Origin: Deltaproteobacteria bacterium
GTDB lineage: Bacteria; Desulfobacterota; DSM-4660; Desulfatiglandales; Desulfatiglandaceae
DNA length: 64,000 nucleotides
Assembly (NCBI GenBank): GCA_021737785.1
Contig: JAIPDI010000030.1
Span: forward strand, 1-64,000
Reading direction: 5' to 3'
In this document: positions 24,403-26,175 of the stretch, one piece after another
Layout: each line of letters starts with the position of its first letter
Position numbering within the stretch: the first letter of the stretch is position 1
Made by a program: the position numbers and the translations under genes
Notes under the pieces: generated by a model
What the model was told of the DNA's origin: nothing
Database searches by the model: none
The model's input: the letters and a program-made list of their open reading frames with translations, nothing else

Positions 24403-25704
24403 CTATACATATGCCTTCACACCCTCTGCCAGGGTGTTCACCATGCAAAGGAAAGAGTCTTCATCCGGATCGAGCAGCGTAAACCTGAAGCCCTGCAGAT
24501 TCGTATTAAATGAGGAGAGGGGGACCACGCACACCCCCGTGGCCGCAAGAAGGTAGTACACAAAGCGCTTGTCGAGGGAGATGTTCCCGTTCGACTGAAG
24601 CAACGACTCAATGAGTGCCCGGATCTGATGGTTTTCAATGGGCAAGGTCTGGCTCTGGGTAAGGACGCCTTCCCTGAAAAGCACACTCATATAAAACGCC
24701 CCGTTCGTCCGGTTGATCAGAATGGAAGGGATCTCTTTCAGTATGTTATGGGCGGTCTGCGACATCCGCTTGTAGCGCGCCCTCCGTTTTCCCACATACG
24801 CTTCGAGTTCAGGGTGTTCGAAGATCAGAGGAATGACCTTCTGCGGAAGCGTGGTGGAACAGACTTCCACCATCTTTGAATTGAGAATGCTCTGCGTGTA
24901 GGTATTGAAATCCGGGTCCCTTTCCCGGTTGTATATCTCAATCCAGCCGCACCGGGAACCCGGCCACGGCAATTCCTTTGAAATTCCTTTCATGGCAATC
25001 CCGGGCACCCCTCCGATCACTTCGGAAAGGGTGCGCGTCCGGGTTCCCTCAAACACCAGGTTTTGATAGATCTCATCGGCGATGATAAAGAGATCGTAAT
25101 CCTTCGCGATCTGCACGATCTCCCTGAGGACCTCTTCCGGGTACACCGCCCCTGTGGGATTGTCCGGATTGATCAGCAAAATACCGGCCACGGCCGGGTT
25201 GTATTTCACACGCTTCCGCAGCTCCACTGTATCCGGATACCAGTGATGATGGGGATCCAGGGGATAGGTTACCGGAGAGACACCCGCATGGGCGGCCTCG
25301 GACGATGAATGGGTGGTATAGGTGGGTGACGGCGTAATGATTCGGGCGGTCCGTCTTAGAAACCCGTAGACCTTGGTGATGGCATCCCCGAGCCCGTTAA
25401 AAAAAATGATATCATCCGCGGTTATTGCGGCGCCTCCCAGGCGGTTGTTCCTCTCCGCGAGATATTCCCGCGTTTCCAGGATACCCTGACTGGGACAATA
25501 GCTGTAGGCACAGTCCTCCATACTGATATCGGATACGATTTTTTTGATCCATACCGGGACCTCCTCTCCCTTGGCCACCGGATCACCGATATTTTCCAGG
25601 TTGATTTCCGCGCCCAGGGCCTTCAGCTTATCAACGACCCGGATAATATTTCGGATTTCGTAATTGAGTTCTCCCGCACCGATATGGACGATTTCCGTTC
25701 TCAT
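24403..25704 (-). CDS. PLP-dependent aminotransferase, class I/II; alanine-forming activity predicted from its leader
   Basis: 433 residues, cytoplasmic, fold type I. Visible are NINPDNPTGA-type text (LLINPDNPTGAVYPEEVL), the PLP Asp/Tyr strand FIIADEIYQNL, and the PLP lysine in MKGISKELPWPGSRCGW with a conserved Arg. The C-terminal small domain ends in FRFTLLDPDED. It resembles the AlaA/aspartate-aminotransferase branch. The message has a ~440-base leader with an alanine-rich peptide and a terminator/antiterminator pair (25897-26175), so transcription should rise when charged alanine tRNA is scarce. This makes an alanine-producing transaminase the best guess; branched-chain activity is the main alternative. 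Confidence 0.85.
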   Translation of the reverse strand: MRTEIVHIGAGELNYEIRNIIRVVDKLKALGAEINLENIGDPVAKGEEVPVWIKKIVSDISMEDCAYSYCPSQGILETREYLAERNNRLGGAAITADDIIFFNGLGDAITKVYGFLRRTARIITPSPTYTTHSSSEAAHAGVSPVTYPLDPHHHWYPDTVELRKRVKYNPAVAGILLINPDNPTGAVYPEEVLREIVQIAKDYDLFIIADEIYQNLVFEGTRTRTLSEVIGGVPGIAMKGISKELPWPGSRCGWIEIYNRERDPDFNTYTQSILNSKMVEVCSTTLPQKVIPLIFEHPELEAYVGKRRARYKRMSQTAHNILKEIPSILINRTNGAFYMSVLFREGVLTQSQTLPIENHQIRALIESLLQSNGNISLDKRFVYYLLAATGVCVVPLSSFNTNLQGFRFTLLDPDEDSFLCMVNTLAEGVKAYV

Positions 25705-25896: not shown

Positions 25897-25923
25897 AAAA
25901 AAAGGCCGCCTCGAAGTGCAGCC
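25897..25923 (-). terminator. Second hairpin plus T-run in the aminotransferase leader
   Basis: Minus-strand GGCTGC (25923-25918) and GCGGCC (25909-25904) pair, with one G-U, around ACTTCGAG, followed by seven Ts. It lies just downstream of the main attenuator terminator, making a tandem pair that would strengthen termination. Confidence 0.5.
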
Positions 25924-25925
25924 TC

Positions 25926-25956
25926 AAAAAAAAGGCCGCAGGCATTGCCCGCGGCC
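25926..25956 (-). terminator. Attenuator terminator of the aminotransferase leader
   Basis: Minus-strand GGCCGCGGGC-AAT-GCCTGCGGCC (25956-25934) forms a 10-pair stem (one G-U) followed by eight Ts (25933-25926). Its 5' arm CCGCGGGC (25954-25947) is the exact complement of GCCCGCGG within leader codons at 26011-26004, giving an alternative antiterminator. Confidence 0.85.
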
Positions 25957-25977
25957 CCTGAATCATCGATGTTTCAT

Positions 25978-26082
25978 TTAAGGAATGAATTCCCCGACCA
26001 GGACCGCGGGCCACCGGGCAGAAGCTGCCGCAGCGGCGGTGATAGCTATTGCAGGGTAAGCGCGCCTCGGTTTCCGGGTCAT
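25978..26082 (-). CDS. Alanine-rich leader peptide (34 aa), attenuator sensor
   Basis: The ATG at 26082 has AGGAG 10 bases upstream (an in-frame ATG at 26091 is too close to it). The peptide opens MTRKPRRAYPAIAITAAAAA and contains ten alanines in 34 residues, including five consecutive Ala codons (GCC GCT GCG GCA GCT at 26037-26023), with Ile, Val and Leu nearby. The TAA at 25980-25978 lies 22 bases before the terminator stem, the usual geometry in trp/his/ilv-type attenuators. Its role is to sense charged tRNA; the peptide itself is likely degraded. Confidence 0.75.
   Translation of the reverse strand: MTRKPRRAYPAIAITAAAAASARWPAVLVGEFIP
26001..26041 (-). promoter_or_regulatory. Pause hairpin and antiterminator arm of the alanine attenuator
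   Basis: Within the leader codons, CACCG (26041-26037) and GGCAG pair with CTGCC and CGGTG (down to 26012), a 1:2-type hairpin. The adjoining GCCCGCGGTCC (26011-26001) can instead pair with GGGGCCGCGGGC of the terminator 5' arm, about 10-12 pairs with one bulge. A ribosome stalled on the Ala codons at 26037-26023 would mask the first arm and release the antiterminator arm. Confidence 0.7.
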
Positions 26083-26146
26083 CGTCCTCATTCTCCTGTC
26101 AGCCCTTTGGCTGTATTTTCAGAAAACCAAAAGATTTTCAAGTGAA

Positions 26147-26175
26147 ATCCTATGCAAAAGGACATTCGATGTCAA
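26147..26175 (-). promoter_or_regulatory. Sigma-70 promoter of the leader-aminotransferase transcript
   Basis: Minus-strand TTGACA (26175-26170), 17 bases, TAGGAT (26152-26147). The predicted start near 26140 gives about 58 bases before the leader peptide ATG and a 5' leader of some 435 bases before the aminotransferase. The remaining gap up to 26435 shows no gene or terminator. Confidence 0.65.

Follow-up and report, generated by a model that had tools for sequence, protein, structure and literature searches.

A ribosome-mediated transcription attenuator with charged tRNA-Ala as its signal very probably controls a predicted alanine aminotransferase gene in a 64,000-nucleotide stretch of DNA from a Deltaproteobacteria bacterium (Desulfobacterota; contig JAIPDI010000030.1, positions 1 to 64,000), referred to here as the window. 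The parts of the attenuator, their conservation, the compensatory changes in both of its alternative stems, and its association with alanine-transaminase-type genes were computed. Translation of the leader, stalling at the Ala codons, sensing of tRNA-Ala charging, and the direction of the response are inferred without any experiment. The mechanism is of a known kind, and the alanine specificity appears to be new.

The leader lies on the minus strand, upstream of the aminotransferase gene (Table 1). Translation, folding, and scanning recovered nearly all of what a preliminary description had read from this DNA: a sigma-70 promoter, a 34-codon open reading frame (ORF) with ten Ala codons of which five are consecutive, a 1:2-type hairpin over these codons, a segment complementary to the 5′ arm of the terminator (25960-25947), a second hairpin followed by seven T, and an aminotransferase gene downstream with its ATG at 25704. 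The terminator of that description stands with its stem and eight T, but the stem has 13 pairs by the scan and not 10. An in-frame ATG at 26091, three codons upstream of the listed start, is an equally possible start of the leader. The leader RNA of the window is more stable than 200 of 200 dinucleotide shuffles (z = −3.25), and other members of the window's clade also have tandem hairpins.

Table 1. Features of the leader and of the gene downstream, in window coordinates.
Feature	Position	Strand	Basis
Sigma-70-type promoter, TTGACA-17-TAGGAT (predicted)	26175-26147	minus	Consensus scan, 10/12 matches
AGGAG, probable ribosome-binding site of the leader ORF	26097-26093	minus	Sequence reading
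Leader peptide ORF MTRKPRRAYPAIAITAAAAASARWPAVLVGEFIP, 34 codons, ten Ala	26082-25978	minus	Translation; Ala run recurs in orthologous leaders
Regulatory codons GCC GCT GCG GCA GCT, five consecutive Ala	26037-26023	minus	Sequence
Region 1, 5′ arm of the protector hairpin, on Ala codons	26037-26025	minus	Minimum free energy fold; 1:2, −19.4 kcal/mol
Region 2 GGCCCGCGGTCCTG, 3′ part of 1:2 and 5′ strand of antiterminator 2:3	26012-25999	minus	Fold; 7/13 pairs compensated with region 3
Region 3 CAGGGGCCGCGGGC, antiterminator 3′ strand and terminator 5′ arm	25960-25947	minus	Fold and covariation of 2:3 and 3:4
Region 4 GCCTGCGGCCTTT, terminator 3′ arm	25943-25931	minus	Scan, fold, 3:4 covariation
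Intrinsic terminator, 13-pair stem, then eight T	25959-25931	minus	Terminator scan
Terminator T run, eight T	25933-25926	minus	Sequence and scan
Second terminator-like hairpin, then seven T	25925-25902	minus	Scan
PRK06855-type aminotransferase, predicted glutamate-pyruvate (alanine) aminotransferase	25704-24403	minus	Homology and AlaA plug residues

In the proposed mechanism, the leader RNA would be transcribed and its 34-codon ORF translated. With plentiful Ala-tRNA, the ribosome would pass the Ala codons and reach the stop codon, regions 1 and 2 could pair, the 3:4 terminator would form, and the gene would be off. With scarce Ala-tRNA, the ribosome would stall on the Ala run and cover region 1; region 2 would then pair with region 3, the terminator would be blocked, and the gene would be transcribed. 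From region 1 to region 4, the window RNA folds into 1:2 plus 3:4 (−54.6 kcal/mol), and without region 1, a mimic of a ribosome sitting on the Ala codons, it folds into 2:3 with no terminator (−36.1 kcal/mol). The computed probability of 3:4 is 0.92 in the free leader, 0.05 to 0.08 when the Ala codons are masked, and 0.94 when the stop codon is masked. Under the strictest mask, equilibrium folding placed the terminator probability below 0.5 in 12 of the 37 Ala leaders detected in orthologous regions (see below). Many other leaders keep their terminator under the mask, and these would depend on the kinetic order of co-transcriptional folding. For testing the switch in general, equilibrium folding has only partial value.

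The criteria for an amino acid attenuator are satisfied in several respects. First, a run of codons for the amino acid product is found in the leader ORF of the window and of 36 other regions, translation being inferred. Second, an intrinsic terminator is located between the leader ORF and the structural gene. Third, there is an antiterminator exclusive of the terminator, with seven compensated pairs. A protector hairpin (1:2) lying over the regulatory codons was seen in the fold of the window alone.

Upstream regions of orthologous genes were gathered by one named-genome scan, two profile searches, and region fetches, and were screened with a strict detector that required an ORF with at least six Ala codons in ten and a terminator of at least eight pairs, no more than 110 nt past the stop codon of the ORF. 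Ala leaders followed by a terminator were detected in 37 of 153 non-identical orthologous upstream regions (for example, L007 MITKHSRVKGELQMMFSLKGYTMAAAAAAAAKAAAAGCRTHARILAR and L142 MMTASTFKTTDAPRATGAAAAGAAAAAAAGQPAVPGGST), in none of 449 upstream regions of other genes taken from the same contigs and from the window, and in none of the reverse complements of the 153 orthologous regions. Reading by eye adds Ala leaders that fall below the thresholds, such as L085, L099, L113, L118, and L137. The densest ten-codon stretch holds six to nine Ala codons in the 37 positives, and all four synonymous codons are in use (GCG 80, GCA 72, GCC 57, GCT 48), a mix that suggests selection acts on the amino acid. 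In the Desulfobacterota set, the gap between the leader stop and the terminator is 14 to 37 nt. Most carriers of the gene, including all Desulfobulbaceae examined, have no detected Ala leader.

These counts bear on the objection that a chance Ala run in GC-rich DNA happens to precede the ordinary terminator of an upstream transcript, with no regulation at all. GCN codons and GC-rich hairpins are indeed common in such DNA. However, this account is scarcely credible, as neither the background regions nor the reverse complements pass the detector, Ala runs also occur in AT-rich Spirochaetota relatives, the stop-to-terminator gap keeps to 14 to 37 nt in the Desulfobacterota set, and compensatory changes are found in two mutually exclusive stems. 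The presence of an Ala leader and terminator at this gene is more than chance.

For the covariation analysis, regions 2, 3, and 4 of 28 distinct sequences were aligned without gaps, region 4 of L084 and L087 being placed by hand from the alignment. The antiterminator and the terminator have region 3 in common and are mutually exclusive. In the antiterminator (2:3), 81.3% of the cells are standard pairs, compared to 36–50% in slid registers, and changes on both sides are found in 7 of 13 pairs (38 cells). The pairing percentage, the number of double-change cells, and the covariation score were each reached by 0 of 500 shuffles, whereas the counts of double-change pairs and of pair types, taken alone, were not above the shuffles (119/500 and 100/500, respectively). 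The shuffle results are inflated by kinship among the sequences, but the slid registers retain this kinship and yet score low. In the terminator (3:4), 89.0% of the cells are standard pairs and 8 of 13 pairs are compensated (52 cells), likewise well beyond what slid registers give. Regions 2 and 3 pair better with their own partners than with permuted ones (352 versus 329 ± 4.7), a value reached in 0 of 5000 permutations.

When the duplexes of own and swapped partners were compared in all 37 leaders, the separation was only moderate (median z −1.8), because the region lengths differ and close relatives share sequence. Pairing of 2:3 is weak in L109, L111, L114, L116, and L120. The Spirochaetota leaders do not follow the 2:3 arrangement of the Desulfobacterota (z −1.2 to +0.7) and were therefore excluded from the covariation set. 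The preliminary description had named two checks on its proposal, conservation of the Ala codons in orthologous leaders and compensatory changes in the 2:3 and 3:4 stems. Both came out in its favor: the codons recur in widely varied Desulfobacterota and in a single order of Spirochaetota, and the changes are found in both stems.

The preliminary description also allowed that the Ile, Val, and Leu codons may be the sensors, as in ilv leaders. Some of these codons are present in the window leader, and related genomes have Leu attenuators of similar RNA layout in front of leuA. Such a branched-chain attenuator is nevertheless highly improbable here, and the suggestion was not borne out. No amino acid other than Ala is enriched at the detector threshold in the 153 regions, apart from three Arg-rich ORFs, and Leu, Ile, and Val never reach six in ten codons before a terminator. 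Moreover, the Val and Leu codons of the window fall in region 2, where the nucleotides are constrained by pairing, and the PRK06855-type gene is not a branched-chain gene.

The ribosome might instead be stalled by the Ala-rich nascent peptide itself, or by a general slowing of translation, and the leader would then be a stress sensor or an arrest peptide that does not respond to tRNA-Ala charging. It is conceivable that long Ala runs slow elongation, and some bacterial leader ORFs are known to sense antibiotics (PMC12121999). Only a slight chance is left to this explanation, since the leaders have no conserved arrest motif and vary freely in sequence outside the Ala run, a role in alanine supply suits the target gene, and a second alanine-transaminase-type gene has an unrelated Ala leader of its own (see below).

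A conserved element, (CG)AGCTA, is found directly 5′ of the Ala run and inside the ORF in most Desulfobacterota Ala leaders (26050-26040 in the window); whether it is a pause site or a trace of shared ancestry has been raised as a question. It contains GCU-A, which the specifier of an Ala T-box would contain as well. T-boxes are known from Geobacter (PMC3766115). However, a T-box, riboswitch, or protein-binding leader is hardly tenable as an explanation. No Rfam family, the amino acid leader models included, reached the gathering score in the window or in 20 related loci, no T-box match was obtained from Rfam even at E values up to 5, and AGCTA is absent from many leaders and lies within an ORF that is inferred to be translated. 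The attenuator sensing charged tRNA-Ala remains the preferred reading.

The product of the regulated gene is predicted, from homology and active-site residues only, to make the amino acid that is sensed; its activity is inferred. The window protein matches NF005334 (PRK06855) with 700.6 bits against a curated cut-off of 443 and is a member of this family. Its closest solved relatives are a Pyrococcus furiosus transaminase (1xi9) and E. coli AlaA (4cvq). The AlaA crystal study described a substrate plug of Tyr15, Ile17, and Arg18, together with Ile40, Gly41, Tyr129, Asn179, Tyr210, and the pyridoxal phosphate (PLP) lysine Lys240 (PMC4094517). Aligned to AlaA, the window protein has Tyr15-Glu-Ile17-Arg18, Ile-Gly at 40/41, and Tyr129, and it places the Asn of NPxNPTG, Tyr213, and Lys243 opposite the other residues; all AlaA active-site residues within the aligned stretch are present. 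Of 80 family loci, 74 have the YxIR plug. The plug and the other aligned residues are as expected for the alanine-forming transaminase that had been proposed at the outset, although the support comes from homology alone.

Compared to AlaA and 1xi9 (about 124 bits), the window enzyme has the same Tyr15-x-Ile17-Arg18 plug, Tyr129, and catalytic Lys but belongs to a separate subfamily, PRK06855. E. coli is not known to have a comparable attenuator. The host genome also has an alanine dehydrogenase, so alanine may have a source besides the PRK06855-type enzyme. Two other aminotransferase-like matches in the host (G000:C11:30893-32032 and G000:C10:95803-96855) carry one in-frame TGA each, for which a pseudogene, a sequence error, and recoding are the options.

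A covariance model of the leader was searched over 395 Desulfobacterota genomes; eight candidates were scored per genome, and weaker cases may be missed. All 23 matches of at least 55 bits are located, by coordinates, just upstream of a PRK06855-type gene. On the enzyme tree, the Ala-leader label needs 5 changes compared to 15.7 in shuffles. The label occurs in the window's clade, in a Desulfuromonadales clade, in one Geobacteraceae member, and in a separate and fully supported Spirochaetota clade, and it is absent from Desulfobulbaceae. L015 and L021 were scored negative on the tree only because their contigs end.

In one Spirochaetota order, Ala leaders are present in all five genomes with a PRK06855-type gene. 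When 30 further Spirochaetota with the gene were surveyed, the only genome that came up was that of L077, which was already in the set. A chain of five segments was read by eye, without statistics, in four of the five genomes: ACUGCGG (before the stop codon), CCGCAGU, a GACUCGCGG-like segment, and GGCGGGUCU could pair in succession, and GGCGGGUCU is the 5′ arm of the terminator. Ribosome stalling at the Ala codons would leave the first segment free, and readthrough under alanine shortage is again predicted. The different segment plan of most Spirochaetota leaders suggests a second origin. In L071, L077, L078, L234, and L235, all from Spirochaetota, the leader ATG lies about 8 to 12 nt past a GATAAT −10 element; given this short distance, translation of the leader ORF may begin on a leaderless transcript.

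A second target was found in one genus (L277, L278, and L279; L255:60-420), in which an Ala leader (e.g., MSRTSTLSAAAAATGSALAAAR) and tandem terminators precede the gene for an AlaC-like aminotransferase. The best family for this protein is the PRK08175 alanine transaminase, with 515, 502, and 502 bits, under the cut-off of 647. None of the paralogues detected in genomes of the AlaC-like family has an Ala leader.

The model built from Ala leaders also retrieved leaders for other amino acids. Leu leaders before leuA in Desulfobacterota (L222, L223, L239, L245, L250, L253, and L260) are similar to the Ala leaders in the core of regions 2, 3, and 4 and in the stop-to-terminator spacing but differ in having Leu codons and a gene for 2-isopropylmalate synthase. 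Phe, Tyr, and Trp leaders before aromatic genes are matched as well, with a similar core and spacing. Because the model selects for similarity, it is undecided whether this likeness reflects ancestry or merely a shared design. It is about an even question whether alanine attenuation arose more than once, on a Desulfobacterota chassis with exchanged sensor codons (Ala, Leu, Tyr, Phe, and Trp) and independently, with a longer stem cascade, in one order of Spirochaetota.

Several individual leaders were noted in the same search. The leuA leader L222 also carries the AGCTATCAGC motif. L221 has a leader, MTANQSRAYLYYYYYYTKRRGLLMD, with six consecutive Tyr and a terminator before a 330-residue protein without an NCBIfam match, and it is a possible tyrosine attenuator. 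In L237, a Tyr-rich leader and terminator precede the gene for indolepyruvate ferredoxin oxidoreductase alpha (IorA), and in L227, a Leu-rich leader and terminator precede a gene resembling that for a 2-oxoacid:ferredoxin oxidoreductase gamma subunit. The Phe/Tyr-rich leaders of L247, L248, L254, L265, L272, L274, and L275 are probable aromatic attenuators; the genes behind them encode DAHP synthases, ADTH synthase, shikimate kinase, and a PRK06836 aminotransferase.

Known attenuator specificities include His, Leu, Thr, Trp, Ile/Val, and Phe (PMC3766115), and leader peptides have been reported in several bacterial groups with no mention of alanine (PMC2965389). No alanine attenuator was found in the literature searched, and an earlier description in the older literature is not excluded. 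Alanine is abundant and is served by two groups of tRNA isoacceptors and four codons, and the sensitivity of such an attenuator is a question for models of codon choice (PMC1183508). With the present case, alanine would join the short list of amino acids that control their own synthesis through leader-peptide attenuation, and a function is offered for an unassayed aminotransferase family, PRK06855, whose activity is inferred from homology. The leaders also form a natural collection for comparing one type of RNA switch fitted with different sensor codons.

The trp, his, leu, ilv, thr, and phe leaders are ribosome-mediated transcription attenuators. The window leader resembles these classic systems in having a small ORF in which the codons of one amino acid are repeated; antiterminator and terminator stems that share strands with each other and, in the window fold, with a protector stem; an intrinsic terminator; and a downstream gene that is predicted to make the cognate amino acid. 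It differs from them in that the amino acid sensed would be alanine and in that the target is a single aminotransferase gene instead of a long biosynthetic operon.
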